DNA from: a virus
Reading direction: 5' to 3' (one strand)
IMG/VR virus record: IMGVR_UViG_3300035698_013554
Span: 1 to 42,496 of that record
Length of the DNA stretch: 42,496 nucleotides
The notes beneath the pieces were generated by a model. That model was not told where the DNA came from. It worked only from the letters and a program-made list of their open reading frames with translations, and did no database searches. The translations under genes were made by a program, and so were the position numbers. Below are positions 26,359 to 41,800 of the stretch, in pieces. The stretch's first letter is position 1. Every line of letters begins with the position of its first letter.

Positions 26359-26387
26359 ATTGAAATTGAAAAATGTTAGGAGATAGA

Positions 26388-26759
26388 ATGGAATTTTTAA
26401 AAATAAAGCTATTAGCTGATAAGAAAGTGGTACAAGAAACTACTAACCGTATAGGAATAGCAAATAAACGTAAGAAAATACTTTATCCAAGTTGTTATAT
26501 TTACGAAAAAGATGGTGAAACATATCTTGTTCATTTCAAACAACTATTTGCAATTAGAGACAATGGTTATGACAATGTGTGTGCTGAAGATATAAAAAGA
26601 CGGAATGCTGTAGCCTTCTGTTTAAAAAACTGGGGGTTGATTGAAGTTGATGATGAAGATATAGAACCTCATGATGTATTTGTATTTGTGTTAAGACATG
26701 AATTTAAACATGAATGGAAAATATATCACAAGGTAAATCTTTTTACATTAAATAGTTAA
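26388..26759 (+). CDS. regA: Translational repressor RegA
   Basis: 123 aa (T4 RegA is 122). I chose the ATG at 26388, which follows TTAGGAGATAGA; an in-frame ATG at 26373 has no ribosome-binding site. Similarity to T4 RegA runs through the protein: T-N-R-I-G-I-A-N-K-R-K-K-I-L-Y-P-S-C, Y-L-V-H-F-K-Q-L, E-D-I-K-R-R-N-A-V-A, K-N-W-G-L-I-E-V and H-E-W-K-I-Y-H-K. RegA binds near the start codons of many phage mRNAs and blocks ribosome entry. In T4 it lies among DNA-replication genes; here it follows gmd and tail genes and has its own late-promoter element. Confidence 0.95.
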   Translation: MEFLKIKLLADKKVVQETTNRIGIANKRKKILYPSCYIYEKDGETYLVHFKQLFAIRDNGYDNVCAEDIKRRNAVAFCLKNWGLIEVDDEDIEPHDVFVFVLRHEFKHEWKIYHKVNLFTLNS

Positions 26760-26765
26760 AAAATA

Positions 26766-26773
26766 TATAAATA
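26766..26773 (+). promoter_or_regulatory. T4-type late promoter
   Basis: Exact TATAAATA followed by C, 28 nt before the TTG start of the small acidic gene. Confidence 0.7.
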
Positions 26774-26793
26774 CTTACATCTGGAGAAATATT

Positions 26794-26919
26794 TTGAATA
26801 AAGATGATTATAAATATAACGTTGATGATGTTGAAGACTTCGATGAGTTTGAAGAATTTTACGGATTTGATAATGAGATTGATGAAGATGGTGAACCAAA
26901 AGAACTTGATTTTGGATAA
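26794..26919 (+). CDS. Small acidic protein, TTG start
   Basis: 41 codons, too short for ordinary gene-finding cut-offs. The TTG is preceded by CTGGAG at 8-nt spacing and by a late promoter 28 nt upstream. The product is extremely acidic (MNKDDYKYNVDDVEDFDEF at its start; Asp/Glu make up close to half the residues) and has five or more aromatic residues spaced among the acids. That composition resembles DNA-mimic or acidic virion-core peptides, but no family is recognised. It lies directly before a longer acidic protein. Confidence 0.7.
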   Translation: MNKDDYKYNVDDVEDFDEFEEFYGFDNEIDEDGEPKELDFG

Positions 26920-26927
26920 TATAAATT
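26920..26927 (+). promoter_or_regulatory. Possible late promoter variant TATAAATT
   Basis: Immediately after the stop of the small acidic gene and 33 nt before the next ATG. One mismatch to TATAAATA. Confidence 0.4.
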
Positions 26928-26952
26928 AAAATAAAAATAGGAGACTTAAACT

Positions 26953-28251
26953 ATGGATTTTCTTAACTATTTAAGTAAATATGAAAAAGAAAACGTTTCT
27001 AATACAATAAAACTTGTAAAAGAAAATAATGAAAAATTAAATTGTGTGTTGAAAGAAGCATTTGATACACCATTTTCAACAAAGACTGAAGCGAAACTTC
27101 GTGTTTCTACAGACTTCACTAATATTAAAACAGCACCAAAGAGTGTTGATGTGGCATATGTTACAGAAAATATGGACTCTATTATTAAAAAGATTGATAA
27201 ACTTGACGAAGGTTCTATTAAGATTATAATTAATAATGATGTTGATAAAGGTAAAGGTGCAGGAGGTGGTATGGGTGGTATGGGTTCTGCTGTTCCACCA
27301 ATGGCTATTGTTCCTGATATTGAAGTTGAAGAATCATATGGTAAAGGCAAGAAATTTGGAAAAAAGAAAAAATTTGAAAAAGAAATAGTTGATGAAAGTG
27401 AAACGACTAAAGTCGTTATCGCTGATAAAGAAACTGGTGCAATATGGAGTGGTGTATTTACAGGTGATGATAAAGAAAAAAGATTAAAAGGTGCACGAAA
27501 AAAGAATCCAAATTATGAAATTATGGATTTTGATAAAGCTGAAGATTTGGCTAAAAAATATAAAGAAATGGATGAGTCTAAAGAAGAGCTTGATGAAAAG
27601 AAAGACGACGGACTTAAAGAATCTGCTGTTGATATTAAACTTAAAGATGATAAAGTTGAAATCAAAACTGGTGTGGATGATGACCCTGTTGACGAATTGC
27701 CTATTGATGGGTTGGGTGAGGATGATGAAGACATTGGTGATGAAGAATCTGAAGAGAATTATAAAGAACCTGAAGAGGAATTGGATGTTAAGTGGTCTGA
27801 TATCGAAGCACAACTTGATAGTATCGAAGCTGGTGTTCAATCATTAGTTGATGATAAAGAAGAGAGTGAAGACGACCTTGAAGATGAACTCGGTAATGGT
27901 GAAGAGGAAGAAGAAATTCTTGGTGATGAATATTTAGTTCCTGAGTCTGAAGATGAAGAGGAAGAAGTAGTTGAAGAAAAGAAGGAAGAACTTGACGAAA
28001 CTGAAGATGAAGAAATTGATGAATCATGTAATGATAAAGACAAAATAAAAGCTAATATCGAAAAAATTAGTAAAAAATTAACATCGTTTCCTAAAAAAGA
28101 TGGTCATGTTGACGGAAGCAATCCTGAATATAAAGACTTATCTGATAAACGAGCGAAATTATATGATAAATTAAATTCACTGGAAGAGGGTGACAAACTT
28201 AAAAAAGAAGGCGAAAGTTACTTAGACTATCTAATGGGAGAAGAAGACTAA
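26953..28251 (+). CDS. Large acidic protein, unknown (candidate head-core or scaffold type)
   Basis: 432 aa after ATAGGAGAC. The N-terminal 110 residues are mixed helical (MDFLNYLSKYEKENVSNTIK). A Gly/Met hinge (GAGGGMGGMGSA, about residues 103-114) and a basic KGKKFGKKKKFEKE patch follow, then about 250 residues dominated by Glu/Asp, ending in ESYLDYLMGEED. No family is recognised. The acidic, low-complexity composition is like phage prohead core and internal proteins, which are cut and packaged, but no capsid genes are in the window to support that. The stop overlaps the next start (TAATG). Confidence 0.8.
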   Translation: MDFLNYLSKYEKENVSNTIKLVKENNEKLNCVLKEAFDTPFSTKTEAKLRVSTDFTNIKTAPKSVDVAYVTENMDSIIKKIDKLDEGSIKIIINNDVDKGKGAGGGMGGMGSAVPPMAIVPDIEVEESYGKGKKFGKKKKFEKEIVDESETTKVVIADKETGAIWSGVFTGDDKEKRLKGARKKNPNYEIMDFDKAEDLAKKYKEMDESKEELDEKKDDGLKESAVDIKLKDDKVEIKTGVDDDPVDELPIDGLGEDDEDIGDEESEENYKEPEEELDVKWSDIEAQLDSIEAGVQSLVDDKEESEDDLEDELGNGEEEEEILGDEYLVPESEDEEEEVVEEKKEELDETEDEEIDESCNDKDKIKANIEKISKKLTSFPKKDGHVDGSNPEYKDLSDKRAKLYDKLNSLEEGDKLKKEGESYLDYLMGEED

Positions 28252-28730
28252 TGTTATTAAATGAAAAAAGAGAAACATATTTTGGAGATGTTGTTGGTGA
28301 CGCTAATACATATTACAACCAAAACATTGACGATAAAATGAATGAAGAGACTATTCCTGATGTGACAGCTTTTAAAGACAAAGAAACAGGTCATTTTGTT
28401 GTTACTATCGGAGATAATGTATTTGAAATGGACGAATATGCAACCGCTCCAAATGGTGTTAATACATTTGTTGGAACAAAAACTGAATTGACAGAAGACC
28501 TTGGTGAACCTGTTGATGTTGAAGCATTACCTGAATCAGTGAAAGAAGCAATTCTTGAAAGAATGAAAGGTAAAGTGGAAGAGGGCGAAAGCAAACTGGT
28601 AACTAATGGTTCTAAATATATGGCTGAAGAAATCTTTTATGCTCCTAAAAAAGCAGAAAAGAAAGTTGCAGAACCAAAAGAAAAGATTGAAGAAAATTCT
28701 ATGGTTATTGAGGGCACTAAGTGGCTCTAA
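28251..28730 (+). CDS. Acidic protein, unknown
   Basis: 159 aa, translationally coupled to the upstream acidic gene by a TAATG overlap. Residues about 35-75 form a possible small beta domain (FKDKETGHFVVTIGDNVFEM); the C-terminal third is Lys/Glu-rich (KKAEKKVAEPKEKIEE). No family is recognised. It is the last gene of the operon, followed within 60 nt by a strong terminator. Confidence 0.8.
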   Translation: MLLNEKRETYFGDVVGDANTYYNQNIDDKMNEETIPDVTAFKDKETGHFVVTIGDNVFEMDEYATAPNGVNTFVGTKTELTEDLGEPVDVEALPESVKEAILERMKGKVEEGESKLVTNGSKYMAEEIFYAPKKAEKKVAEPKEKIEENSMVIEGTKWL

Positions 28731-28750
28731 TGTAGTAGAAATAGTGAATG

Positions 28751-28758
28751 TATAAATA
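28751..28758 (+). promoter_or_regulatory. T4-type late promoter abutting a terminator
   Basis: Exact TATAAATA only two bases before the terminator stem. A transcript starting here would begin inside the hairpin, so it could escape termination. Confidence 0.45.
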
Positions 28759-28760
28759 TA

Positions 28761-28789
28761 GGGGAGATTCAATTGAGTCTCCCTTTTTT
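28761..28789 (+). terminator. Rho-independent terminator
   Basis: GGGAGATTC, loop AATT, GAGTCTCCC (9-bp stem with one G-U pair), then TTTTTT. It closes the gmd-regA-acidic gene operon. Confidence 0.93.
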
Positions 28790-28804
28790 ATTTGAAAATA
28801 ACTA

Positions 28805-28833
28805 TTGACTATATTTTTAGAATTTATTATATT
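28805..28833 (+). promoter_or_regulatory. Sigma-70-type (early) promoter
   Basis: TTGACT at 28805-28810, 17-bp spacer, TATATT at 28828-28833. The arrangement is identical to the promoter at 39733-39761. It directly follows a terminator and precedes a small gene, so it probably restarts early transcription. Confidence 0.8.
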
Positions 28834-28873
28834 TAGACATATTTGTTTATAATTGAACCGGAGGAAAGTTTTA

Positions 28874-28969
28874 ATGAAAATGTATTGTTTATATCCTAAT
28901 AATTGGGGTGATGTGTGTTTTGTGATGTCTGATTCTAAAGAAAATGCATTAAAAGCTATATTAATTTAG
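28874..28969 (+). CDS. Small protein, 31 aa, possibly truncated
   Basis: ATG after CGGAGGAAAG, about 40 nt downstream of an early promoter. The product begins MKMYCLYPNNWGDVCFVMSD and ends abruptly at TAG after NALKAILI. It looks like the N-terminal end of a longer domain. The -1 frame is open from 28939 and continues for 80 codons with homing-endonuclease-like sequence, so the gene may have been broken by a frameshift or by insertion of foreign DNA. Confidence 0.55.
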   Translation: MKMYCLYPNNWGDVCFVMSDSKENALKAILI

Positions 28970-29181
28970 GTAAAAAACATACAATTGAAACTAAACAAAA
29001 AATAAGTAATAGTTTAAAAAAGAAATATGTTATACAAAAAGATAATTTTGAAATGTTGATTTTTGATTTAAAACGATGTTGTGGTGAAATGGGATTTGTG
29101 TATAAATCTATTACTTCGGGATATTATATAAATAAAAATAAAAGATATAAGGGTTGGTTAATTAAAACAGTTGAGGTTTGA
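28939..29181 (+). pseudogene. NUMOD3-like homing-endonuclease C-terminal remnant without start
   Basis: An 80-codon open frame with no usable start codon, out of frame with the small gene it overlaps. It reads LGKKHTIETKQKISNSLKKK, which matches the NUMOD3 motif (G-K-x-H-T-x-E-T-K-x-K-I-S-x-S-L-K) found in GIY-YIG and HNH homing endonucleases. About 45 further residues end in KRYKGWLIKTVEV, like the C-terminal NUMOD1/helix-turn-helix region that closes such enzymes. No nuclease domain is present. It is probably a relic of a free-standing endonuclease gene; it ends two bases before the ATG of the glycosyltransferase. The rest of the 28731-29182 gap holds the terminator, promoter and small gene. 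Confidence 0.65.
29127..29134 (+). promoter_or_regulatory. Possible T4-type late promoter for the glycan operon
   Basis: Exact TATAAATA 56 nt before the glycosyltransferase ATG, inside the non-functional remnant frame. Confidence 0.5.
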
Positions 29182-29182
29182 A

Positions 29183-32100
29183 ATGGAAAAGAAAATTGCG
29201 GTTGTTAGTGTTGTTACTGGAGCATATGATACAAAAATATATGAACCACAAAATGTTGATAAAGATAAATATGATTTTATATTATTCACTAATATGAAAA
29301 GAATAAAATCAACTGTTTGGGATATTAAATATAATGATTTAAAAATTCCAAATAATATTTCAAAATCTGCATATTATTACAAATGGAATCTTCATAATAT
29401 ATTAGATAAAAATAAATATGATTATGTGATTTGGGTAGATTCATCAATATGGAAATTTGATTTTAATAAATTTGATGAATTTGTTGATGAATTTATAAAA
29501 TCAGATAATGCTTTATGGATAGAAAAACACCCATCTAATAATTTGGTAAAAAATGAATTAAATCTTAATGTTAAATTAAAAAAAGATAATATTGATAAGA
29601 TGGTAAATCAAGTCAATAGGTATTATAATGAAGGATATAAAGATAAAGATGATAGTTGTGTTGAAACTGGTTTTTCTCTTCGTAAATTAAATGATAATAA
29701 ATTAAATAATATGTGTGATTTAATTTGGAGTGAAATGAAAGATGATTCATCAACAAAACGTGACCAATTAATTTATGATTATGCTTTATGGAAAAGCAGA
29801 TTTAGTAATTATAAATTATTCACATTTCAAGAAAAATGTGAGATTTTACAATTCCAAGACCACCCTAATAGAGCAAAACATATGGAAAGGGTACTGATGG
29901 TTGGGCCTTGGTATGGTAATCCCAAATATGAGCCTGAGTGGGTTGCTTATGTTGAAGAATATCTTGGCAAGACTCCCATTGATACAGTGATGGTTGGATG
30001 TCGTCTTGGGCATGAATCTCTTTATGAATCTATACAACCGGATAAATTTTTTATTAGTGACCCTGAAGGTGCGATACGTAATAATTTACTTGGTGAAAAA
30101 GTTCCAAGATTTAGTGTTACTTCTAAAGATAAAGAAATTATTCAATTAAATCCAGATTCCAAAAGTTTTAATAGATTAAAATTGTTTGACGATTCTGTTC
30201 ATTTTAAAGTTGAAATTACTGGATGGAAAGTTGAAAAATATATTGACAGGTGTATTGCGTCATTATTGAAACAGAAACATACTAATTGGGAAGCCTGTAT
30301 TGTATTAGACCCAAGTGATGATAATACATATAGCATTGCTAAGAAATATGAATCTGACAAAATTAAAGTTGTGATGAATGACGAACGAATGGGTTCTTTA
30401 TATAATCATAGAAAATGTGTTAAATTGATGAATCCTAATCCTGAAGATGTTGTAATGACATTGGATTCTGATGATTGGTTTGCACATGATAGAGTAATGA
30501 CTGTAATAGAAAATACATATTTGCGATATCCTGATACATTGGTGACACATGGTAGTTGGATTGATTATCCGAATCCAGGGTCTTTAAAGCCAAATAATTC
30601 TCAGCCATATCATAAAGAAGAGTTTAATGATATACGTCATGCTTTCTTTAAGGGAACGCATGTGCGAACAATAAAGGCGAAGATATGGAATTCGATTAAA
30701 GAAGAGGATTTAAAGAATGACAATGGTGAATATTTTGAAACGGCTGGTGATGTTGCTCTTATGATTCCTTCATTAGAAATGGCAGGTTTTGATAGAGTTA
30801 AATTTATACCTGATGTTATGTATATATACAACAGAGAAACTGTTTTTAATGATGATAAATTCAGAACAAATCAAGGTGACAATCATATACAAATCACAAA
30901 TAAGAAACCGTACACCCTGTATACTGAAGTAGGGACTGATATAATTGTTTTTAGTAAAGATAGAGCAATGCAATTGGACGCTTTTTTGAGGAGTATGAAA
31001 AAACATCACAAGAATTTGGACTCATGTTCTGTCAATATTTTATACAAATGTTCAGATGAAATTTTTGATAATGGGTATGAAATTTTATGTAACAAGTATC
31101 CAGAATTTAATTTTGTTAAAGAAACTTCATTTAAAGAAAATTTGGTTAATATTTGTAAACATGGAACCAAATCAACAATACAATTTTTTGTTGATGATAT
31201 TATTTGGAAAAGTGATTTTAGTTTTGATGATGACATATATAAGAAATTTGAAAGTGATGAATCTGTATTGGCATTATCATTGAGATTACATCCAGATATA
31301 ACTTTCTGTCATCCATTAAATCGTGATATTGCTAAACCAGAAATGGTAAATAATATGTGGGATTGGAAAGATTGTGAAGGGGATTGGGGATATCCGATGT
31401 CTGTTGATGGAAACATATTTAAGAAGCGTGATGTTATAAATAGTGTGGAGAAGTTTAGTTATACCAATCCAAATTTATTTGAAGCTACTATCACAATACA
31501 TAATACTTCTACAAAAAAACAAATGATATGTTATGATAAATCAAAATTATTCAATATTCCAATGAATAGAGTTCAGAATGTTTTTAGCAACTTGTGTGGT
31601 GATGTATCACCAGAACTGTTAAATGAAAAATTCATATCCGGCAAAACTATAAATATTGATAAATTTGTGGATTTTAAAAATATTTCTTGTCATCAGGATG
31701 TTGAAGTGGAATTTGATGGAGAAAATAAATTTGATGTGTTTCTTGTTTGTGGAATAAAAGATTATCAAAAATTACCATTTTGTGTAGACGCTATAAAGCA
31801 AAATGTTGTTGGGTTTGATAATATACATATTTGTACTCCAAATAAAGTTGATATTGATGGTGTTATATGGCATAATGAAAACGACGTTCTGGAAATTGAT
31901 AAATCCAGAATTAATCACAGACCAAACTGGATATATCAGCAATTTTTAAAATTGTTCCAAGATGTCACTGAAAATGATTATTATATGACTATTGACGCTG
32001 ATACAATAATAAACAAACCAATGTCTATGTTTACTGATGATGGAAAACCAATATGGAATATTAGTTTCGCTCAAAACCATCGACAATATTATGTTTATAA

Positions 32101-32464
32101 TAATGCGATGTTTGGGTATGAAAGACATACTGACCATACATTTTTAGCAGATATGAATTTTTTCAGCAAGAAAATTATTAAGTCGATGTTGGATAAATTT
32201 GATTATACGGTTGAGAGTTTCGTTGAAAAATCTTATGGTGTTATTAAATCTGGTGAATGTTATCCATCAGAAGCTGATGTGTATGGTAATTTCTTTACCA
32301 AATATCATCCAGACTTATATTCCATCAGACAAATATCATCCAATATGGAAGGTAGGCATTGTAGTGTTGATGAAGCTGTGTGGTCTGAAGATGAAATAAA
32401 GAATAAAATAGACCAAATGAAGTTTGTAGATGTTGATACGTTTTCAATGCATTCATGGACATAG
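29183..32464 (+). CDS. Four-domain glycosyltransferase
   Basis: 1093 aa from the ATG at 29183 (GAGG upstream; an in-frame TTG four codons earlier is less likely). Four GT-A-like segments are visible. (i) Residues 1-225, VVSVVTGAYD, F-I-L-F-T-N and YVIWVDSSIW, resembling the DUF616/TOD1 type. (ii) About 345-560, a GT2-type domain with C-I-A-S-L-L-K-Q-K-H-T-N-W-E and the nucleotide-sugar/metal motif DSDDW near 430. (iii) About 585-800, D-I-I-V-F-S-K-D-R-A-M-Q-L and FFVDDI. (iv) About 850-1093, FDVFLVCGIKDY and IDADTI near 938, like DUF6492 transferases. It could add several sugars in sequence. First gene of the glycan operon. Confidence 0.8.
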   Translation: MEKKIAVVSVVTGAYDTKIYEPQNVDKDKYDFILFTNMKRIKSTVWDIKYNDLKIPNNISKSAYYYKWNLHNILDKNKYDYVIWVDSSIWKFDFNKFDEFVDEFIKSDNALWIEKHPSNNLVKNELNLNVKLKKDNIDKMVNQVNRYYNEGYKDKDDSCVETGFSLRKLNDNKLNNMCDLIWSEMKDDSSTKRDQLIYDYALWKSRFSNYKLFTFQEKCEILQFQDHPNRAKHMERVLMVGPWYGNPKYEPEWVAYVEEYLGKTPIDTVMVGCRLGHESLYESIQPDKFFISDPEGAIRNNLLGEKVPRFSVTSKDKEIIQLNPDSKSFNRLKLFDDSVHFKVEITGWKVEKYIDRCIASLLKQKHTNWEACIVLDPSDDNTYSIAKKYESDKIKVVMNDERMGSLYNHRKCVKLMNPNPEDVVMTLDSDDWFAHDRVMTVIENTYLRYPDTLVTHGSWIDYPNPGSLKPNNSQPYHKEEFNDIRHAFFKGTHVRTIKAKIWNSIKEEDLKNDNGEYFETAGDVALMIPSLEMAGFDRVKFIPDVMYIYNRETVFNDDKFRTNQGDNHIQITNKKPYTLYTEVGTDIIVFSKDRAMQLDAFLRSMKKHHKNLDSCSVNILYKCSDEIFDNGYEILCNKYPEFNFVKETSFKENLVNICKHGTKSTIQFFVDDIIWKSDFSFDDDIYKKFESDESVLALSLRLHPDITFCHPLNRDIAKPEMVNNMWDWKDCEGDWGYPMSVDGNIFKKRDVINSVEKFSYTNPNLFEATITIHNTSTKKQMICYDKSKLFNIPMNRVQNVFSNLCGDVSPELLNEKFISGKTINIDKFVDFKNISCHQDVEVEFDGENKFDVFLVCGIKDYQKLPFCVDAIKQNVVGFDNIHICTPNKVDIDGVIWHNENDVLEIDKSRINHRPNWIYQQFLKLFQDVTENDYYMTIDADTIINKPMSMFTDDGKPIWNISFAQNHRQYYVYNNAMFGYERHTDHTFLADMNFFSKKIIKSMLDKFDYTVESFVEKSYGVIKSGECYPSEADVYGNFFTKYHPDLYSIRQISSNMEGRHCSVDEAVWSEDEIKNKIDQMKFVDVDTFSMHSWT

Positions 32465-32474
32465 GAGAAAGAAT

Positions 32475-33341
32475 ATGAATCTGGTATTGATACATATTGG
32501 AAATACCTTACCTGATTATATTGGTGACACAATTGAACAGGTGAGGAAGTTTTATGATGGGAATTTGATTCTCGTCAAATCTAAACATTGTGATATGACA
32601 CATTTGGATGATATGACAGTTATTGATTATGAATCATTACTTGACCATCATAGAGTACAGGAATTTAAAAATGTTTCTACTTTACAAGGATTCTGGGGTG
32701 TGACGTGTGAGCGTTTTATCATCTTAGAATCGTTGATGGAGAAAATAAAATTAGATACTGTATTCCATATCGAAAATGATGTAACGATTTATAATGACCT
32801 GACTAATCTATTACCACTTGTAAAAAAGCATTGTAAAGATTCGGTTGTTATAAATCCAACTGGACCTGAAATATCAACAGGTGCGTTTATATATGTTGAT
32901 AATTTGAAAGCGATTTCTTTTATGAATGAGCAGTTTATAAACTTTTTGCGGAATCCTAATTTGGTTACTGATAGATTAAATGAAAAATTTATGAGTGAAA
33001 TGAAATTTCTGAACATACTTAATTTGGATTATCCTGATAAGGTTCAGGCATTTCCTATACTACCACACCAAGAAGGTTTGGGTGAGTCAACGGATTTGTT
33101 ATTTGATTGTGCTACATGGGGACAGTTGCTTGGTGGTACACCGGGTGGTATGTTGGGTGCAGAACGCTTCCCACATCATTGGATTGGTCAAGAGATGTAT
33201 CCTGAAAGAAAGTATGAATATGAGTGGATAGAAGATGATAAAGGAAGACGCTGTATATTTGTAGTTGATAAAAGTGGTAATAAATACAAATTGAATAATT
33301 TACATATACATTGTAAACGAGTTAAGGAGTTTATGTCTTGA
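32475..33341 (+). CDS. Glycosyltransferase-like protein (GT-A type)
   Basis: 288 aa. I chose the ATG at 32475 because TAGGAG precedes it; the longer frame begins inside the upstream gene. N-terminal strand NLVLIHIGNTLP, then a conserved-looking F-W-G-V-T-C-E-R-F-I-I-L, and FHIENDVTIY near residue 100, where E-N-D stands in the position of a DXD-type motif. No exact family is recognised. Its stop overlaps the TTG start of the next gene (TTGA), so translation is coupled. Confidence 0.6.
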   Translation: MNLVLIHIGNTLPDYIGDTIEQVRKFYDGNLILVKSKHCDMTHLDDMTVIDYESLLDHHRVQEFKNVSTLQGFWGVTCERFIILESLMEKIKLDTVFHIENDVTIYNDLTNLLPLVKKHCKDSVVINPTGPEISTGAFIYVDNLKAISFMNEQFINFLRNPNLVTDRLNEKFMSEMKFLNILNLDYPDKVQAFPILPHQEGLGESTDLLFDCATWGQLLGGTPGGMLGAERFPHHWIGQEMYPERKYEYEWIEDDKGRRCIFVVDKSGNKYKLNNLHIHCKRVKEFMS

Positions 33342-34132
33342 ACAGAGAAGAATTAATTGACGGTGATGGTTTTGAACAAATTGCTAAAGAGTTGGGAATT
33401 GTTTATTGTGAAGGAATAGGTATAAACAATTCACTGGATAATAAGTTTGTGATGTATCATAATGGTGATGGGTGTATTTTACCTTCAGGTCTTATACGAA
33501 AGCCAATGAATGAGGATAGATTTTATGATTTACATTGGGATACTATCCCAGATAAATTAAAAATGATGTTTTCACAAAATGTTGGTGTTGATGATGAACG
33601 TATTGTTTGTTTACCAATAGGACTTGAGAGGAGTCGGTGGTTTAGGAACCTCGATAAACATGGGAAGATTTTAGATATGATGAGATTACAACCACAACGT
33701 GATAAATTAATATTTCTGAATATCAATCCACACACCAATTTATTTTCAAGACCACCACTAATTGAAGCGATGAAAGATAATGTGTGGTGTACTATTGATA
33801 ACAGACCAAATGGTGCTGATTACAACGAATATCTTCACAAAATGAAGGAACATAAGTTTGTATTTTCACCGGAAGGCAATGGTTTGGATTGTCATAGAAC
33901 ATGGGAAGCACTGTATATGGGAGCATATCCAGTAATGGAACGGAATGTATTCGCTGAAACATTTGCTAAAGAACTCCCAATATTGATTGTTGATAAATGG
34001 GAAGATGTGACAGAGGAATTTCTTAATGAACAATATGAAATAATTAATAACACCGAATGGAATTGGGATATGATGAAACTATCATATTGGAAAGATTTCA
34101 TTTCTAACACAATTAACAATTTAAGAGAATAA
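33338..34132 (+). CDS. Exostosin-like glycosyltransferase
   Basis: 264 aa with a TTG start supported by AAGGAG at 8-nt spacing. The diagnostic segment near residues 170-200, KFVFSPEGNGLDCHRTWEAL followed by Y-M-G-A-Y-P-V, matches the nucleotide-sugar-binding C-terminal signature of exostosin/GT47-like transferases (S-P-x-G-x-G-x-D-x-H-R-x-W-E-A-L). Together with its neighbours it probably builds a phage-specified glycan. The N-terminal half is not recognisable. One base separates it from the next gene. Confidence 0.75.
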   Translation: MNREELIDGDGFEQIAKELGIVYCEGIGINNSLDNKFVMYHNGDGCILPSGLIRKPMNEDRFYDLHWDTIPDKLKMMFSQNVGVDDERIVCLPIGLERSRWFRNLDKHGKILDMMRLQPQRDKLIFLNINPHTNLFSRPPLIEAMKDNVWCTIDNRPNGADYNEYLHKMKEHKFVFSPEGNGLDCHRTWEALYMGAYPVMERNVFAETFAKELPILIVDKWEDVTEEFLNEQYEIINNTEWNWDMMKLSYWKDFISNTINNLRE

Positions 34133-34133
34133 T

Positions 34134-34682
34134 ATGGGATATGATTTAAGTTTGCCGATAAAAAATGATTATTACACACATTTGCCATTGATGAAATATT
34201 TGTTTGAAAATGTTATAACAAGTGGTTCTAAAGTTTTAGAGCTTGGATGTGGTGAAGGAAGTTCTCCATTTTTAAAATATGTCCAAGAACAATTGGATTT
34301 GGATGTCTATTCATTTGAAACTGACGCTGGTTGGTTTAATAATATAAAAAATAAATATGGTAGTGAAAAATATAAATTTTCCCATATTGAAAATTGGGAT
34401 GAATTTGGATGTCACTTATTTAATGATAGTGATTTTTTTGATTTGGTTTTTATAGACCAGTCCCCGTGGGAAGCAAGAATTGAAGCTGCATTAAAATTAA
34501 AAGACAGAAGTAATTATGTTGTGATTCATGATTATGATTATTATATTCGAAAATTGAATCATTTACATAAACAAATTGAAGAAAATTTTAAATTTATAAA
34601 ATATTATGATAATATTCATCCAGAAACTATACTGCTTAGTAATTTTAAAGATGTTGAGTTTGATAACATCCAGTGGATATAA
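34134..34682 (+). CDS. Class I SAM-dependent methyltransferase-like protein
   Basis: 182 aa. The SAM-binding motif I is clear: KVLELGCGEGSSPFL (residues about 33-47), followed by the acidic strand end S-F-E-T-D and F-D-L-V-F-I-D-Q near 102-109. The substrate is unknown; sugar O-methylation is plausible given the surrounding glycosyltransferases. The ribosome-binding site is weak (AAGAGA), consistent with coupling to the upstream gene. Confidence 0.75.
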   Translation: MGYDLSLPIKNDYYTHLPLMKYLFENVITSGSKVLELGCGEGSSPFLKYVQEQLDLDVYSFETDAGWFNNIKNKYGSEKYKFSHIENWDEFGCHLFNDSDFFDLVFIDQSPWEARIEAALKLKDRSNYVVIHDYDYYIRKLNHLHKQIEENFKFIKYYDNIHPETILLSNFKDVEFDNIQWI

Positions 34683-34710
34683 ATTATGTTGACAAAAAAA
34701 AGACATTGAA

Positions 34711-35364
34711 TTGATTCATAGTAAATTATATATCCCCCAATATGATGAAACGTTGACAAAGTATAATGATGGGCAGTGGGAATGGGAAAATAAAGCATTC
34801 ACTCGCATCACATCTTTAATCGAATTCAGAAAAATGATTAAAGAACTTGGGATTTCATCAGATAAAATGCTCGTGATGAATGGTGAGGGTGACTCAGAGT
34901 TGGAGTTTATTACAAAGGAATATGTTTCATATTGTAATTATGTTTCAAATCCAGATTTGTATGATTTACATACTATGGATTTAGATGATAAAGATTTTGA
35001 TTTTGTTATATGTAATCAAACAATAGAACATTTGTATAATCCATTTGTGAGTGTTAAAAATATTAACAGTCATATGAAGATGGATGGATATTTTTATGCG
35101 ACTGTTCCAGTTAATAATATGCCACATGATACACCTATTCATTTTTATACTGGATTCACCGCAGTTGGGTTTGGTGCATTGGTGGAAGAGTGTGGGTTTG
35201 AAGTTGTCAAGTTAGGACAATGGGGAAACTTTGAATATTTGGAAAAAATGTTTGTTGAAAATAAATGGGCTGATTATAGACAGGTATCATGGAAAAATGA
35301 TGTAACCTGCCCAATTGATTGTTGGGTGTTAGCAAAAAAAGTAAAGGATGTCTGTAATGATTAG
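34711..35364 (+). CDS. Methyltransferase-like protein, uncertain start
   Basis: 217 aa if it starts at the TTG shown. The region F-D-F-V-I-C-N-Q-T-I-E-H-L-Y-N-P-F, then MKMDGYFYATVPV, is the motif IV-V part of Methyltransf_11/23-type SAM methyltransferases. Motif I is degenerate (KMLVMNGEGDSE), so activity is doubtful. The TTG has no Shine-Dalgarno sequence. An ATG at 34686 begins MLTKK and would run straight into this frame if an 8-A run (34694-34701) were one base shorter, giving a natural-looking N-terminus MLTKKDIELIHSKLYIPQ. A slip, an indel or a sequence error are all possible. Confidence 0.65.
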   Translation: MIHSKLYIPQYDETLTKYNDGQWEWENKAFTRITSLIEFRKMIKELGISSDKMLVMNGEGDSELEFITKEYVSYCNYVSNPDLYDLHTMDLDDKDFDFVICNQTIEHLYNPFVSVKNINSHMKMDGYFYATVPVNNMPHDTPIHFYTGFTAVGFGALVEECGFEVVKLGQWGNFEYLEKMFVENKWADYRQVSWKNDVTCPIDCWVLAKKVKDVCND

Positions 35365-36079
35365 AACAAATTATGTGGGTGGTGTTGGTAACAATATGTT
35401 TCAATATGTGTTTGCCAGAATAATAGCAGAACAAAACAATCTATATTTAGCAGAAACTGTGAGTAATCCAATAACTGAGTTTAAAGTGATGTCTGATAAG
35501 TTCCCTGTTGATACCATACCATATGACACTACGGATAAAATAATATTAACACCTGATTATAGTGATGTTCTGTATATCGGTGGATATTTTCAAGACCCAC
35601 GAATATATGATTTAAATAAAGATTTGATAAAATCATTTTTTGATTATGAAATAAATAAAAGAACGGATGGTTCTGTTACTGCACATATTCGATTAGGTGA
35701 TTATCATCAATTCGATGGTGGTGTTGTTATTCATCCCAATTGGTATCGTAAGAGATTTAAAAAATTAGGGTGTGGTACTAATAGAAAATTGTATATAGTG
35801 TCTGATGATATAAATGACCCATACATGGAAAATTTTAAAGAATTTAATCCTGAGTTTGTGTCAAGTACAGTTCGGTCTGATTTTCAGTTCATTATGAATT
35901 CAGATATCATTGTATCATCTAATAGCACATTTTCTTGGTGGGCTTCTTGGCTTAGTGAGGCGAGTAAGATTTTTATGTTCTCACCTTGGATATATAAAGA
36001 ACATCATAGAAAATTTAATTTGGCATATATGGATAGGGCAACGCTTACAAATGGAGCATTTTTAAAGGAGATTGAATGA
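35357..36079 (+). CDS. GT11-type fucosyltransferase
   Basis: 240 aa. I chose the second ATG (35357), nine bases after AAAGG; the first ATG (35348) directly abuts that site. GT11 family features are the N-terminal GGVGNNMFQYVFARIIAEQN (donor loop G-x-G-N-x-x-F-Q-Y), HIRLGDY at residues 110-116 (the H-x-R-x-G-D-Y motif that binds GDP-fucose), LYIVSDD, and S-N-S-T-F-S-W-W-A-S-W-L near the C-terminus. GT11 enzymes mainly transfer L-fucose in alpha-1,2 linkage. Gmd at 25333 would supply the precursor of its donor. The start overlaps the upstream gene. Confidence 0.88.
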   Translation: MIRTNYVGGVGNNMFQYVFARIIAEQNNLYLAETVSNPITEFKVMSDKFPVDTIPYDTTDKIILTPDYSDVLYIGGYFQDPRIYDLNKDLIKSFFDYEINKRTDGSVTAHIRLGDYHQFDGGVVIHPNWYRKRFKKLGCGTNRKLYIVSDDINDPYMENFKEFNPEFVSSTVRSDFQFIMNSDIIVSSNSTFSWWASWLSEASKIFMFSPWIYKEHHRKFNLAYMDRATLTNGAFLKEIE

Positions 36080-36657
36080 GTTTTATTGGAAGAAGTCAAT
36101 TAGAAGTTAATTTTAATAGAAGTAATCAAGTGGGGCAGATGAGTCCTGATGAACGTGAAGCGATGTATAATCTTGTTATCAAATACAAACCAAGAAATAT
36201 ATTTGAAATAGGTACATGGATGGGTTGTGGTAGCACATATTATTTGGCAGCAGGATTATATAATGTGAACAATGATGGGATGTTGTATACTGCTGAGGCA
36301 CATATAGGTGCATATAATCATGCTTTGAATTTTTATAAAACCCAACCAGATTTGATACCATTGCGGGATAATGTGGAGTTTCATTTTGGAACTGGTGTTG
36401 ATATATTTACTAAGAAGCTCAAAGAATTTGACAAAGTAGATATGGTATTGTTTGATGGTGCTGATGATAATCAAACCACGTTGGATGAATATAATGTATT
36501 TAAGGACAAGTTTAAGACAGACACTATTGTCATTTGTCATGATTGGAAAACCAGAAAGGCAGAATACATCAAAGATTTTTTATTGGATGATACCAAATGG
36601 AAACAATTGTTTATCATGGATACTTTAACTGGGTTTGCTGCATTTAAAAAGAAATAA
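36076..36657 (+). CDS. Class I SAM-dependent methyltransferase (Methyltransf_24-like)
   Basis: 193 aa, overlapping the fucosyltransferase stop (ATGA) with GGAG upstream. Motif I is NIFEIGTWMGCGSTYYLAAG at about 35-54; an acidic residue follows at A-E-A-H; DMVLFDGADD at about 120-129 is the motif IV region typical of cephalosporin-hydroxylase/Methyltransf_24 enzymes, which need a metal and methylate sugars or catechols. It is the last gene of the glycan operon. Sugar methylation is inferred from context only. Confidence 0.78.
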   Translation: MSFIGRSQLEVNFNRSNQVGQMSPDEREAMYNLVIKYKPRNIFEIGTWMGCGSTYYLAAGLYNVNNDGMLYTAEAHIGAYNHALNFYKTQPDLIPLRDNVEFHFGTGVDIFTKKLKEFDKVDMVLFDGADDNQTTLDEYNVFKDKFKTDTIVICHDWKTRKAEYIKDFLLDDTKWKQLFIMDTLTGFAAFKKK

Positions 36658-36677: not shown

Positions 36678-36685
36678 TATAAATA
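36678..36685 (+). promoter_or_regulatory. T4-type late promoter
   Basis: Exact TATAAATA followed by C, 55 nt before the ATG at 36733, in the 75-nt gap that starts the next operon. It lies within the left arm of an inverted repeat. Confidence 0.75.
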
Positions 36686-36715
36686 CTAATATACACAAAA
36701 TATATTAGTATTTAT
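36679..36715 (+). other. 15-bp inverted repeat overlapping a late promoter
   Basis: Arms 36679-36693 and 36701-36715 are exact reverse complements around a 7-nt loop (CACAAAA). The left arm includes the TATAAATA element. Read-through RNA from upstream would fold it fully; RNA started at this promoter would lack much of the left arm. The ribosome-binding site AAGGGGG begins six bases after the right arm. Confidence 0.85.
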
Positions 36716-36732
36716 TATATAAGGGGGTTCTC

Positions 36733-37059
36733 ATGGACATTCTTACAACTGTTCTAATCACAACCGGGGTATCTTCTGTTGTAGCTGTTCTTGTGAAAGC
36801 TATATGGGATTGGGTTACAAATAAGAACGGGAAAAAAGAAATAGAAGAATTAAAGGCTGAAATAAAAAGTCAACGAAAAGAATTTGCTGATTTGAAAAAT
36901 GTGATTTTAACATCATATATCAAGAAAGATGATTTTGAAAAACATCTTGTTAAATTTGAGGATGTTAGAGATAAGACTTTGATGAATGAAAATAATATCA
37001 AAATGATTCGTGATAGTGTTAGACAAAATGTTCAAAGAATGTCACAATTAGAAAAGTAA
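36733..37059 (+). CDS. Membrane-anchored coiled-coil protein, unknown
   Basis: 108 aa with a strong AAGGGGG site. One N-terminal membrane span (residues about 5-27, TVLITTGVSSVVAVLVKAIW) is followed by a Lys/Glu-rich helix that continues as coiled coil to the end (KEIEELKAEIKSQRKEF). Size and topology resemble phage holin-like or spanin-like accessory proteins, but no diagnostic motif is present and no endolysin is adjacent. Next in the operon is a receiver-domain protein, so a signalling-related anchor is equally possible. Confidence 0.7.
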   Translation: MDILTTVLITTGVSSVVAVLVKAIWDWVTNKNGKKEIEELKAEIKSQRKEFADLKNVILTSYIKKDDFEKHLVKFEDVRDKTLMNENNIKMIRDSVRQNVQRMSQLEK

Positions 37060-37069: not shown

Positions 37070-37480
37070 ATGAAAGTTCTTATTGTAGAAGATAGTTTGG
37101 GATTAGTTCAAGTTTATACTGGTATAATAAAACATATTGTAAAAAAACTAAAACCTAACGAGACACTCGAAGTGGTGTCTGTAGCGAACAACGAAGAATA
37201 TTATTATTTTAAACATATGGGGTTTGACTTAGCTATTTTGGATTGGAATATAATCGGTGGTACATCGGAAAGTATAATTCAAGACGCAATAGGTAAAATT
37301 GCATATTCGTATTTTATAACGGGATATGCTAATAATAAACGGGTGCGTGAATTGTCGAAACAATTTAATATTCCTATAATGTCAAAACCCTCAACAGAAT
37401 TAGAAATTATTCAAATATTAGAAAGGGCGATAGAGAAGATTTATAATGGGATTACGACAATGGTTTCTGAAAAAGTGTAA
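37070..37480 (+). CDS. Stand-alone CheY-like response-regulator receiver
   Basis: 136 aa. All key receiver residues can be placed: acidic pair E7-D8 in VLIVEDS, phosphoacceptor D58 in FDLAILDWNIIGG, T84 in FITGYA, and K106 in IMSKPS. There is no output domain; about 30 residues of helix follow. Receivers accept phosphate from a histidine kinase and signal through conformational change. No kinase is in the window, so it would have to draw on host kinases or act as a decoy. It overlaps the next gene by 35 nt, suggesting a paired function. ATGGAGATAAA precedes its start. Confidence 0.85.
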   Translation: MKVLIVEDSLGLVQVYTGIIKHIVKKLKPNETLEVVSVANNEEYYYFKHMGFDLAILDWNIIGGTSESIIQDAIGKIAYSYFITGYANNKRVRELSKQFNIPIMSKPSTELEIIQILERAIEKIYNGITTMVSEKV

Positions 37481-37919
37481 GAAAAAAGAAAATGGTGATA
37501 AAGAAATAAATGAATTAAAAGATAGAATAAATAAATTACAAGCAATATCCGTATTGACTCATAGAACGTTATTAAAGACTCTCTTTAATATCTCATGTGT
37601 GTTACTATTTACAGCTTTGAGTTGTGTTGTATCATTTATTATATTTGGAGTAATTGGGGTTGTATTTAAATTGCTATCAGTGTTTACTATAATTGCATTG
37701 ATACCAATATTAATATTATTGTATTTAATCTTATATGGTAAACATACATTAATTATTTGTTCTAATTGTAGAAGAATAAAATATAATAATAAGTTTTATG
37801 TGTTGGAGGAATTTATTGGAAATCTTTCACATGACATTTGTGCCGAATGTGCAAGGACTGAAACATCAATCGGTATGACTGAAAAAAAACGTCAACACAA
37901 TGGTGGTAAATATGGGTAA
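37446..37919 (+). CDS. Two-span membrane protein with a C-terminal four-Cys domain
   Basis: 157 aa. A basic N-terminus and a short coiled coil (residues 17-35) lead to two membrane spans (about 46-70 and 74-97). The C-terminal domain, IICSNCRRI, then L-E-E-F-I and S-H-D-I-C-A-E-C-A (C105, C108, C132, C135), matches the C-S-x-C-K-K-I-R ... W-x-x-I-E-x-Y-I ... F-S-H-G-I-C-P-E-C module that follows receiver or PAS domains in some bacterial signalling proteins. Here it is detached and membrane-anchored, beside a receiver gene it overlaps by 35 nt. Metal binding is inferred from the Cys spacing. Confidence 0.75.
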   Translation: MGLRQWFLKKCKKKENGDKEINELKDRINKLQAISVLTHRTLLKTLFNISCVLLFTALSCVVSFIIFGVIGVVFKLLSVFTIIALIPILILLYLILYGKHTLIICSNCRRIKYNNKFYVLEEFIGNLSHDICAECARTETSIGMTEKKRQHNGGKYG

Positions 37920-38589
37920 ATTTTTAATAGAATATTATAGTGGTGGTGCTGATTGGAGACAAAAGATTGTAACACATCGAACTCCAACGGGACGTATTTC
38001 ACGTGTTCGTGTTGGTAGTTTGACTCCAGATGAACAACTTAAATACAATCCTAACAGATTTAAACGTGGCAAAGCTGATACTAAAATGACAAAAGGTGAC
38101 TTTGAAAAATTAAGAGACCTTGACAAAAAAATCAGAACAATGGATGTCTATGTTGCGTCAAAGGATTTAGATGAAATTGAAGATGTTCAGGATATCATAC
38201 AAGCAGATAAATTAGTTCTTGGAACAACTGATAGCAAGAATGTAGTGAATCTATTTGATGATGATTATGATGTAGTAAAAATTCATAAACTTCCCGTTAC
38301 AGCAATTAAAAAATACATGACAAAGAATGTCGAAGACGCTGAGTCTATTGATGATTATTCATTCACGGATGTTGATACTGATGATGAAGAGAAGCTCTTT
38401 GAAATAAGTAAATTCAAAGATTCAACGATATTTCTTCTTGATTTATATTCATATTTAAAGGATGTAGAATTTAGTATTGACCATGCTGATGACGATGAAG
38501 ATGATTTTGAAGAGTTGGATGGTCGTGGTGATAGTAAAGAGGAAGAAGTAGAAGAAGGTAAATTTAGTCAGTTTTATAGGGAGGAGTAA
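37912..38589 (+). CDS. Acidic protein, unknown
   Basis: 225 aa from the ATG at 37912, which has GGTGG upstream; an in-frame ATG at 37900 has no such site. It overlaps the preceding gene. The N-terminal 60 residues are basic (MGKFLIEYYSGGADWRQKIV, then H-R-T-P-T-G-R-I-S-R-V-R-V-G) and the rest is increasingly acidic, ending in EEVEEGKFSQFYREE. No family is recognised. Its stop overlaps the next ATG (TAATG) with GGGAGGAG as the site, so it is coupled to the ADP-ribosyltransferase-like gene and may assist or be packaged with it. Confidence 0.78.
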   Translation: MGKFLIEYYSGGADWRQKIVTHRTPTGRISRVRVGSLTPDEQLKYNPNRFKRGKADTKMTKGDFEKLRDLDKKIRTMDVYVASKDLDEIEDVQDIIQADKLVLGTTDSKNVVNLFDDDYDVVKIHKLPVTAIKKYMTKNVEDAESIDDYSFTDVDTDDEEKLFEISKFKDSTIFLLDLYSYLKDVEFSIDHADDDEDDFEELDGRGDSKEEEVEEGKFSQFYREE

Positions 38590-39623
38590 TGTCATTTACA
38601 GAACACTATTTTAATGAGGATGTCATTAATGAAATGCTTCTCAAGGGCAAAAGAAAATCTGAGGGAAGTCAAGATATTATGGCTTTCAATAAATGGATTT
38701 ATTTCCTTGATGATGAATCCCCTGATTGGGAAAACACAAAAAAAGAAATCATTACCAATCTCAATCTTGAGGATAAAATAGGTGAGGGTGATTTGGAAGA
38801 TGTTGATTCTAATGATTTAAAACAACAGGTTTCTGAATATGTACCTGATGTGTTGGTTGGGAGTGTTGATGAATATAATAACATGAATGTTGATTCATAT
38901 GGGTCATTTAAACTCGACCCTAAGTCATCAATTCTTATAAAGAAAGTTGTGAAACAATTGGGAATTGATAATGTAGAATATCCACGAGATGATTATGGTA
39001 GTGAGGAAACTTCAAAATATGAAATCAAGGGCAAGATTCCTGATGTTGCATATCATGGAACGACTTCTGAATATCTTGATGAAATTTCAAGAATTGGTTT
39101 AAGACCGGGAGCAAAAGAATCAAATTGGTTAGCAGGTGCAATAAAAATTGAACACCCTGATAAGATTTTCTTTTCAACACGTATTGATGAAGCGATGAGT
39201 CATGCCCAAATGACTGCGGAAAAACGTGGTGGCGTGTCATTGGTTGTTGAATTTAAAATCCCTAATAAGGATTTGATGGTTGCTGATTATGATGTTGAGG
39301 TTCAAACAGGACAACACATGGATGGTGATTCTGATGTTGGGTTGTTTTATACACATATGGATAAACCAACACACGGGAGTGAAAAAACTCACAAAGAAAA
39401 ACCATTTTCTGTTTCAAAGGAATTTGGTATCTATGGATATAAAGGGGCAATTCCTCCAAAATTTATTTTATCATATTGGGCTGCTGTGGGAAAAGACCCA
39501 GAAGATGTTTATGGTCAAGATGATTATACAGAATTTGACGCTACAGATGTTGGTGAATTAAAATGTGAATTAGACCCAGATGAATGTGATTATGATAATG
39601 AAGAAGAGTATGATGAAGAATAA
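38589..39623 (+). CDS. ADP-ribosyltransferase-like protein
   Basis: 344 aa. After an acidic N-terminal 150 residues (MSFTEHYFNEDVINEMLLKG) comes a domain with VAYHGTTSEYLDEISRIGLR (H156, G157, T158), KIFFSTRIDEAMSHA (S196/T197) and FSVSKEFGIYGYKGAIPPKF (E278). This order of H-G-T, S/T-strand and E before I-P-P-x-x-I is that of PARP/Tpt1-like ADP-ribosyltransferase folds, which use NAD to modify proteins or nucleic acids. The C-terminus is very acidic. T4 carries unrelated-looking ADP-ribosyltransferases (Alt, ModA, ModB), and Alt is injected with DNA; late expression here would allow packaging. Enzyme activity is not proven; another Tpt1-like activity is possible. Confidence 0.6.
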   Translation: MSFTEHYFNEDVINEMLLKGKRKSEGSQDIMAFNKWIYFLDDESPDWENTKKEIITNLNLEDKIGEGDLEDVDSNDLKQQVSEYVPDVLVGSVDEYNNMNVDSYGSFKLDPKSSILIKKVVKQLGIDNVEYPRDDYGSEETSKYEIKGKIPDVAYHGTTSEYLDEISRIGLRPGAKESNWLAGAIKIEHPDKIFFSTRIDEAMSHAQMTAEKRGGVSLVVEFKIPNKDLMVADYDVEVQTGQHMDGDSDVGLFYTHMDKPTHGSEKTHKEKPFSVSKEFGIYGYKGAIPPKFILSYWAAVGKDPEDVYGQDDYTEFDATDVGELKCELDPDECDYDNEEEYDEE

Positions 39624-40013: not shown

Positions 40014-40316
40014 ATGAAAAAACAGGTAATAAAATAAGTAAATGATAGTAAGAATGCAGAACCAAATATAATAAAAATATATTGGTTTCCAGATGAAAAT
40101 GAAGTAAGATTAATAATATTAGAAGATAATATTATATTTAAATCATATAGTGGGTGTGTTGAACCATTTTATTTTGAGTCATGTCCTGAATATGGATACC
40201 CTGCACCAACTGCAATTGCTACTATTTTGCTTGATGAATTTGGGTTGTTAAAATTATCATGTGAGTGGGGTGCCAATTGGGATAATGTTGTAGATACTGA
40301 AAGTGTGGTAAAATGA
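40014..40316 (+). pseudogene. 100-codon ORF interrupted by an in-frame TAA at codon 8
   Basis: Reading from the ATG at 40014 gives MKKQVIK, then TAA (40035-40037), then an uninterrupted 92-codon frame to TGA, overlapping the ATG of the CCA-enzyme gene (ATGA). The downstream part is protein-like: IIKIYWFPDENEVRLIILED, then GYPAPTAIATILLDEFGLLK and E-W-G-A-N-W-D. No alternative ATG, GTG or TTG with a ribosome-binding site restores it. Options are a nonsense mutation, a sequence error, suppression, or re-initiation. The 304-nt stretch between the flanking intact genes holds nothing else. Confidence 0.65.
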
Positions 40317-41800
40317 AATATTGGAAAGATTTTTTAAATTATTCAAAAGAATTATCAGTTGCTGTTGAATTGATGAAAATTCTCAAATATTATGGTTATA
40401 GTTTTAATCATGAAGTTCTTTTGGTTGGTGGACTTGTTAGAGATATGTGTATTGCTATTGATAACTATGAACATCAAAATAATGATGATGTGTTGTGTGG
40501 TAAAGAAAGATATTCTTCATTTTTGGAATATCTTAAGGGTGAAAAATTTAAAATAAATGATGTGGATTTTGCAACAAATATTCCTATTGAAAAATTCGAA
40601 CCTCATTTTGATTGTATTGATATTGGAAAAAATAAGGATTTTGGGATTCTTGTCATTAAATATGAAGATTATGTTTTTGAAATTGCCAATTATCGTCAAG
40701 AATCTGGATATGGTGATGGTAGACATCCAGATTCTGTTATAATGATAAAAGATTTTGAGGGTGACGCAAAAAGGCGTGATTTTGCAATAAATGCAATGGG
40801 TATTGATGTAAATGGGTGTATTTATGATTATTTTAATGGACAAAGTGATATTAGAATTGGGTGTATAGATACTGTCGGTAACCCTGATGAACGTTTTGCT
40901 GAAGATTATCTTCGTATGCTTCGAGCTGTGAGATTTTCTTCAAAATTACAATTCGGTATTGAAAAACGGTGTATTGAAGCTATTCAGAAAAACGCTCATA
41001 AAATTGTAAATGTTTCTTGGGAAAGAATACTCAAAGAGCTTAATAAAATGGCTGACTTGAGTGGTGAACAATTTGCAAATGCTATTGAGTTGATGGATTT
41101 GACTGGATTACTTCAATATATACTTCCTGAGATATCAGCAATGAAATCATTAAAACATAACCCAAAGTTCCATCCCGAAGGTGGCTCAACTGTATATGGA
41201 CATATTATAGAAGCATTGAGATGTAATAAATATGAAGATGTGTTGTTAAATTGGTCAATTCTTTTGCATGATGTGGGAAAAATTTCATGTTATAGTTGTA
41301 AAGATGGTATGTATCATTATTACAAACATCATTTGGAAGCCAAATCGTTGATTGGTATTATAGCAGATAGGTTGAAATTTTCAAATGAATTAAAAGAATG
41401 TTGTCAATTTGTTGCTTTGAATCACATGACACTCCACGATTTTCGAAAAGTTAAAAAATCTAAAGCTATGTTGCTTGTTAACCATAAATATTGGGGTGTT
41501 CTTTTAAAAGCATCATATTGTGATTCTAAGAGTCGTGGAAATATATTTGATAGTTGTGATTGGGATAAGACTGAAATGTATATATCAGGTCTTAATGATT
41601 GGTTTAAAGGCAAACAGGGTATTGATAATATACGTAAGGTTGTTAATGGTGCATTGATAATGAAATTAAGACCCGAAATTAAGCCATCTTCAATTATGGG
41701 AAATATAATAAAGCATACGATTGATTGGATTATAAATGAAAATATCGACATAGAAAAGAATATTAGTGATGTTCATAAATTTGTAAAAGAATTTATATAA
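40313..41800 (+). CDS. cca: CCA-adding enzyme / poly(A) polymerase family nucleotidyltransferase with HD domain
   Basis: 495 aa. Class II nucleotidyltransferase motifs are present: LLVGGLVRD (residues 36-44), the metal-binding D-V-D at 83-85 (NDVDFAT), RRDFAINAMG at 154-163, and DERFAEDYLRMLRAVRF at 192-208, the nucleotide-selecting region. A C-terminal HD-type domain has Y-G-H-I-I-E-A-L (H297) and LLHDVGK (H319, D320). Such enzymes add or repair the 3' CCA of tRNAs; HD-containing versions can also remove 2',3'-cyclic phosphates. That fits a phage that repairs tRNA after host anticodon-nuclease attack, but no tRNA gene lies in the window. Confidence 0.9.
   Translation: MKYWKDFLNYSKELSVAVELMKILKYYGYSFNHEVLLVGGLVRDMCIAIDNYEHQNNDDVLCGKERYSSFLEYLKGEKFKINDVDFATNIPIEKFEPHFDCIDIGKNKDFGILVIKYEDYVFEIANYRQESGYGDGRHPDSVIMIKDFEGDAKRRDFAINAMGIDVNGCIYDYFNGQSDIRIGCIDTVGNPDERFAEDYLRMLRAVRFSSKLQFGIEKRCIEAIQKNAHKIVNVSWERILKELNKMADLSGEQFANAIELMDLTGLLQYILPEISAMKSLKHNPKFHPEGGSTVYGHIIEALRCNKYEDVLLNWSILLHDVGKISCYSCKDGMYHYYKHHLEAKSLIGIIADRLKFSNELKECCQFVALNHMTLHDFRKVKKSKAMLLVNHKYWGVLLKASYCDSKSRGNIFDSCDWDKTEMYISGLNDWFKGKQGIDNIRKVVNGALIMKLRPEIKPSSIMGNIIKHTIDWIINENIDIEKNISDVHKFVKEFI

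Follow-up and report, generated by a model that had tools for sequence, protein, structure and literature searches.

Single-domain receivers and a membrane coiled-coil neighbour recur together in tailed phages

Background

A response-regulator receiver that a virus carries without any output domain raises the question of which partner it works with and to what end. The question is posed here by a T4-like phage contig, referred to below as the window (the whole stretch of DNA that was analysed, 42,496 bases, corresponding to the whole virus record), in which a receiver gene overlaps the gene for a membrane protein with a four-Cys/His module, hereafter the Cys protein. An earlier note on this DNA had proposed that these two proteins form a split relay. 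Phage CheY-like proteins have been published as auxiliary metabolic genes (PMC7289586, PMC10579305) and the receiver of phage R8W as PhoB (PMC8228385); such phage genes have so far been filed with neither a partner nor a site of action assigned to them. Here we argue that the better-supported partner of the receiver is not the Cys protein, but a small coiled-coil membrane protein encoded directly upstream.

Results

The gp6-like protein of the window is ~25% identical to T4-type baseplate wedge proteins. A single relative was detected in IMG/VR, an 84.5-kb contig (L001), and both it and the window are phage fragments. IMG/VR scans with two-row alignments of the receiver, the coiled-coil protein and the next gene of the operon each led to this same contig, and no additional relatives were obtained either from the IMG/VR scan with the Cys protein or from tblastn searches in phages with the receiver and the Cys protein as queries. 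In L001 the genes are ordered as methyltransferase, coiled-coil membrane gene, receiver, a 301-aa gene and an ADP-ribosyltransferase (ART)-like gene; in the window this order recurs, with the Cys gene added between the receiver and the next gene. All features of this run, and those in the gap before it, lie on the + strand. The gene that follows the Cys gene (37912..38589), to which no function was assigned, is 62% identical in L001, where it comes directly after the receiver, and its ATG at 37912 is a likelier start than the 37900 of the open reading frame list, as the start in L001 coincides with it in the alignment. The run closes with the ART-like gene (38589..39623), 61% identical in L001, whose product matches phrog_11974 (E=3e-24) and, weakly, Pfam PTS_2-RNA (E=0.06-0.08). 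Relatives of this protein in the T4-like Schizotequatrovirus phages of Vibrio are annotated as poly(ADP-ribose) polymerase, and the L001 copy lies at 6326-7330. Immediately upstream of the receiver operon the window carries a long run of sugar-modifying genes (25333-36657; GDP-mannose dehydratase-like, glycosyltransferases and methyltransferases) that is partly common to L001, and at 40313-41800 it encodes an enzyme of the PolyA polymerase / CCA-adding type with an HD-like region, also kept in L001.

The open reading frame at 37070..37480 is confirmed as a divergent receiver, single-domain, CheY-like and FATGUY-like, of 136 aa. In Pfam and NCBIfam the window protein has no receiver match; its profile matches to CheY are weak (E=0.05), its match to phrog_731 (E=0.013) is too weak for use alone, and among PDB sequences it comes closest to the receiver Sma0114 (2lpm, E=0.011). 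The L001 ortholog (133 aa, 52% identical) matches Response_reg over its full length with 18.0 bits (E=0.0034), under the curated cut-off of 30.2. The earlier note had made its reading hinge on the prediction of a receiver fold, and the AlphaFold2 model of the window protein is indeed a (beta-alpha)5 fold, with elements in the order E-H-E-H-E-H-E-H-E-H, a mean pLDDT of 78 and a pTM of 0.75; response-regulator receivers dominate its Foldseek matches in the PDB (best E 1.8e-5). The description of the protein as a bare receiver with all its phosphorylation residues likewise stands: the receiver fills the whole protein in both phages, leaving no output domain, and the acidic pair E7/D8 (37088-37093), the predicted phospho-acceptor D58 (37241-37243), T84 (37319-37321) and K106 (37385-37387) are all present. 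Together with P107, these residues are identical in window and L001. Identity between the two receivers amounts to 32/37 positions near the active site vs 37/96 elsewhere (hypergeometric 4e-7), and under a circular-shift null, which is stricter and lends modest support, 5/133 shifts reach this clustering. The concentration of identity around the active site is therefore real.

Directly before the receiver lies a gene (36733..37059) for a 108-aa protein with an N-terminal membrane span (residues 1-25) and a coiled coil, whose 58% identical L001 ortholog is again directly upstream of the receiver. The earlier note had mentioned this protein in passing, and it proves to be the recurrent element of the locus. 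At 15/15 phage receiver loci, picked by receiver homology and spread over five phage lineages, a gene of this type directly precedes a single-domain receiver: the window and L001, the V22 group (L089, L093, L094 and L095; L092 is V22 itself), Schitoviridae (L096, L097), Autographiviridae (L099, L101) and siphoviruses (L098, L102-L105). At all 15 the product of the upstream gene has 98-127 aa, is hydrophobic at its N-terminus and is otherwise charged and helical. In V22 itself the protein before the receiver, ORF29, is small and hydrophobic at its N-terminus and contains a WFWYDKKKGDK stretch as well as a coiled coil, and receiver homology from V22 led to the pair in V22-like contigs, Schitoviridae (A5), the siphoviruses R9Y1-3 and Autographiviridae (R8W, H4/4). 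The pair criteria, which were fixed after the first cases had been seen, were passed by 6/6 upstream neighbours vs 3/119 other genes, two of the three being lipoproteins. V22 and A5 share the pair region by exchange (PMC10579305), and the proteins of the Autographiviridae and siphoviruses (R8W, R9Y1) are homologous; hence the loci reduce to ~3 independent cases. Most receiver matches in phage records (Listeria, Enterococcus and faecal sets) were left uncounted because they are likely to represent host DNA in unannotated records, and two phages with full-length regulators and without the pair (L106, L107) were set apart as a different kind.

The coiled-coil families of the T4-like phages and of V22/A5 align over a juxtamembrane WxW..KxGxK stretch (hhalign P=2.3e-4, vs P=0.05-0.11 for spanin control comparisons), and profile comparisons of the Autographiviridae/siphovirus family with the T4-like family and with the V22/A5 family were not significant. 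In the V22-type proteins the span is only weakly hydrophobic. Each family has one conserved His (H71 in the window), but its position differs between families, so that a role as phospho-transfer site is only a lead. The Pfam, PHROGs and NCBIfam matches of the coiled-coil and Cys proteins were weak compositional matches and were not used.

The gap of 75 nt ahead of the operon holds an exact match to TATAAATA (36678..36685), the sequence of late promoters in T4. Behind it the pair opens a five-gene run, and the description of the operon as late-type is in keeping with this motif. The window holds 20 copies of TATAAATA on the + strand vs 3 on the - strand, and the motif falls within or at the edge of 8/13 of its gaps over 20 nt. 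The longer pattern TATAAATACTNNTA has 42 matches with up to 2 mismatches vs 20 expected, and position 36678 is one of its two exact matches; L001 carries ATAAATACT at the corresponding place. An AT-rich inverted repeat read from the sequence, ATAAATACTAATATA ... TATATTAGTATTTAT (36679..36717), overlaps the promoter motif and is possibly the terminator of the upstream run; L001 has a similar hairpin at the same place (about 4540-4575).

The overlap reported between the receiver and its downstream neighbour is 35 nt long (37446..37480), with both reading frames as described. It encodes the receiver tail, which is disordered in the model (pLDDT below 50 for residues 130-136). The downstream frame (37446..37919) encodes a putative accessory protein of 157 aa that, from sequence, hydropathy and AlphaFold2, comprises a basic helix/coiled coil, two spans and the four-Cys/His module. 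Its hydrophobic region, residues 42-98 (37569..37739), is read as two spans from hydropathy; strong hydrophobicity extends over residues 42-106, which fits two spans, and AlphaFold2 renders residues 3-98 as one long helix. Profile and alignment place the module at C105, C108, H129, C132 and C135 (37752..37850). In the model, with pLDDT of about 50-60, a beta hairpin (110-119) is followed by a helix from 133, at the second CxxC, an order of elements that may be treble-clef-like, as in treble-clef zinc fingers, a resemblance in which we place low confidence.

The profile of cellular members scores the phage protein at 17.6 bits, above the best of 2000 Cys-fixed shuffles (15.1), with a best single domain of 16.0 vs 10.2 for shuffles, and seven columns (C105, C108, I111, Y118, H129, C132, C135) show no variation when the phage protein is aligned with 22 other members. 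The four-Cys module is upheld, on what is read as a two-span anchor. As compared with the bacterial modules, that of the phage keeps the CxxC[KR]xI[RK] ... SHxICxxC pattern with the four Cys and the His, but its loop is six alignment columns shorter, the DDxGYW, CPxC and LYP signatures are lost, and it joins the second span directly, whereas the cellular modules are preceded by a coiled linker. The Cys gene has the lowest GC content of the run (27.0%; neighbours 29-34%). It is missing from L001, both at the receiver locus and elsewhere, in a search of that fragment which had no positive control. NG[DK]KEI[NE]ELK occurs both in the N-terminal helix of the Cys protein and in the coiled-coil protein (shuffle p=0.005), which, as weak as such a likeness is given coiled-coil composition, may reflect two coiled coils that meet. 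The Cys protein, with its module of metal-binding type, is probably an optional extra beside the pair.

The bacterial four-Cys/His module (L007-L086), for which Pfam has no family, is widespread and its function appears undescribed. A scan of bacterial genomes gave at least 542 confirmed matches, with 2 to 10 copies each in 12 genomes. Among 73 cellular module proteins scanned, PAS_9 and PAS_4 match 27 each, Response_reg 13 and HAMP 11, followed by Cache, GAF, MASE3 and others with fewer matches. The earlier statement that the module usually sits behind receiver or PAS domains is therefore correct as far as it goes (Response_reg in 13 and PAS in at least 27 of the 73) and incomplete, since HAMP, Cache, MASE3 and bare spans also occur. 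Short cellular proteins made up of membrane spans and the module alone, such as L023, L047, L051, L073, L074, L079 and L080 in an 80-locus sample, establish the membrane-anchored module as an existing bacterial architecture, and the notion that the membrane anchor is unusual had to be given up. A temperate phage contig (L006, 3419-4192) encodes a PAS + Cys-module protein between capsid-type genes; this module too is phage-borne, but it is of the soluble PAS type usual in bacteria and adjoins no receiver.

Discussion

The comparison of the two T4-like contigs bears directly on the composition of the signalling unit. The coiled-coil gene and the receiver are kept in L001 and the Cys gene is not. 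The reading that we favour, at somewhat short of an even chance, is that the core consists of these two genes, not of the receiver plus the Cys module, and that they provide a receiver which is made late, is tethered to the membrane, comes without a kinase of its own and is phosphorylated by kinases of the host. This unit is delineated by gene content and order, conservation, the receiver fold, the active-site residues and the recurrence of the pair, all of them observed. The first gene (36733-37059) would place its N-terminal span in the inner membrane and expose its coiled coil to the cytoplasm, a topology suggested by the basic residues after the span, and the second (37070-37480) would supply the single-domain receiver, both being made late in infection. 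Host histidine kinases would pass phosphoryl groups to the receiver, which, phosphorylated or unphosphorylated, would dock on the membrane coiled coil, and host kinase signalling near the membrane would as a result be drained, rerouted or read out. The added Cys membrane protein may join the same assembly. A phage-borne kinase partner was considered and rejected: no HATPase_c domain was found in the window or in L001, both fragments, in a search in which 14/14 controls matched. The possible gain for the phage would be a drained stress pathway, changed motility or timed lysis. More broadly, and with clearly less assurance, one may conceive of a mobile kinase-less coiled-coil/receiver unit that has been passed between unrelated tailed phages, reads the phosphorylation state of host kinases and sets some late event (lysis, for example, or the suppression of a membrane response of the host), and that in some phages recruits extra membrane parts like the Cys-module protein; we consider this wider proposal tentative and, on balance, doubtful.

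The setting of the pair in other phages suggests a more specific function, in which the pair would influence the function of holin or spanin, so that the phosphorylation state of the host determines the time of lysis. In V22, A5, R9Y1 and R8W the pair lies directly beside spanin, holin or endolysin genes (V22 ORF31 matches an Rz-like spanin, phrog_4297, E=8.5e-6), the window pair is in a late-type operon, and the two-span Cys protein, both ends of which are predicted inside, has a holin-like topology. On the other side, neither in the window nor in L001 could a gene next to the pair be recognised as coding for a holin, spanin or endolysin, and lysis cassettes commonly take accessory genes, so that neighbourhood alone proves little. 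A lysis role is something that we infer for the Alteromonas phages, without support from the neighbours in the window, and as a general account of the pair we regard it as unlikely. What the promoter motif in the window and the lysis-gene setting in the Alteromonas phages jointly indicate is that late expression of the pair is likely in both groups, to the extent that promoter function carries over from T4 biology.

Bacteria have single-domain pseudo-receivers. With this precedent, and with a window protein that falls under the Pfam cut-off and far from canonical receivers, the phage protein could be conceived as a phosphorylation-independent fold, which would bind a kinase or motor of the host in a structural role or as a decoy. 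This would leave unexplained that the five active-site residues and their loops are the best-conserved parts between the two phages, and we consider it quite unlikely.

The relay put forward in the earlier note, in which the receiver signals to the Cys protein and the latter substitutes for the usual fused receiver-module protein, draws on the overlap of the two genes and on the cellular proteins in which the module follows Response_reg or PAS. Start/stop overlaps are nonetheless common in phages, and the receivers of V22 and A5 likewise overlap the spanin gene. Many cellular modules are found on membrane spans without any receiver, and the phage module lacks the signatures and the coiled linker of its cellular counterparts. 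Above all, L001 keeps the receiver, the coiled-coil gene and their neighbours without the Cys gene, the next conserved gene following the receiver. The relay has accordingly been set aside as distinctly improbable. Least probable of all, and hardly to be expected, is that the receiver is a cRec protein, proposed as a processing enzyme for cyclic phosphate/ADP-ribose tied to NAD-using genes: cRec has been reported in phages beside NAD/ADPr enzymes (PMC7824862) and the ART-like gene, itself weakly assigned, belongs to the same run in both phages, two conserved genes further downstream, but cREC_REC (PF20274) matches neither contig at E<=10, Response_reg is full length in L001, and in the structure search ordinary viral response regulators and kinases come ahead of a viral cRec protein, which does not rise above rank 34 (E=0.021, TM 0.47).

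The two-gene unit would place phage CheY-like genes in a different light. These genes are already known, and what we did not find described in the literature searched is their recurrent membrane partner and, likewise, a FATGUY-like receiver in T4-like phages. The publications dealing with the V22, A5 and R8W receivers (PMC7289586, PMC10579305, PMC8228385) do not describe the coiled-coil partner, and V22 gp29 and A5 gp10 are listed as hypothetical proteins of unknown function (PMC10579305). The recurrence of a receiver copy with a membrane coiled-coil neighbour in several unrelated phages suggests that viruses may gain access to host signalling at a late stage of infection, and the pair offers a small testable unit of two genes and one predicted phospho-site, with V22 and R8W available as laboratory phages. 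If the pair does read host kinases, two-component signalling would join the inputs for late decisions of phages.

Among known systems, the closest in genetic arrangement are the Alteromonas phages, in which V22 ORF30, A5 gp11, R8W gp48 and R9Y1 gene 12 encode single-domain receivers with lengths of 133-153 aa, each preceded directly by a TM-coiled-coil gene, as in the window, and V22 ORF30 ranks third in the viral structure search with the window receiver. The likeness in arrangement is accompanied by marked divergence in the receivers themselves. Those of the Alteromonas phages are canonical, with 62-83 bits, well over the Pfam cut-off that the window receiver fails to reach; they match phrog_731 at 1e-19 to 1e-24, against E=0.013, and carry a Y at the third position ahead of the KP lysine and a helical extension at the C-terminus, both of which the window receiver lacks. 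The window protein is about 20% identical to them, and their pairs sit among lysis genes, unlike that of the window. R8W gp48 (L099 3513-3974) has been called a DNA-binding PhoB, yet it is a 153-aa receiver with a short helical tail in which no DNA-binding domain was matched. A phage protein that acts on several host two-component systems is also known from Pseudomonas, PIT4 (PMC10714779), the product of an early gene of LSL4.

The receiver itself is better compared with the FATGUY regulators (Sma0114, MrrA and SdrG; PMC5964349), which also consist of a single domain. As in these proteins, the usual end of beta4 is replaced in the window by FITGY, and the aromatic residue of the Y-T switch is lost, I103 standing at K-3 in both phages. 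The full motif, PFxFATG(G/Y) (PMC5964349), is matched in part by the SYFITGY and VIFITGY of the two phages, in which FITGY is present but PF and A are absent. The FATGUY regulators are alphaproteobacterial hubs for HWE/HisKA2 kinases. Output-less single-domain receivers are known that serve as hubs or as sinks for phosphoryl groups (PMC5964349), and in the FATGUY-like end of beta4 and the loss of the aromatic switch residue the window receiver resembles single-domain receivers that work as phosphoryl hubs with sinks.
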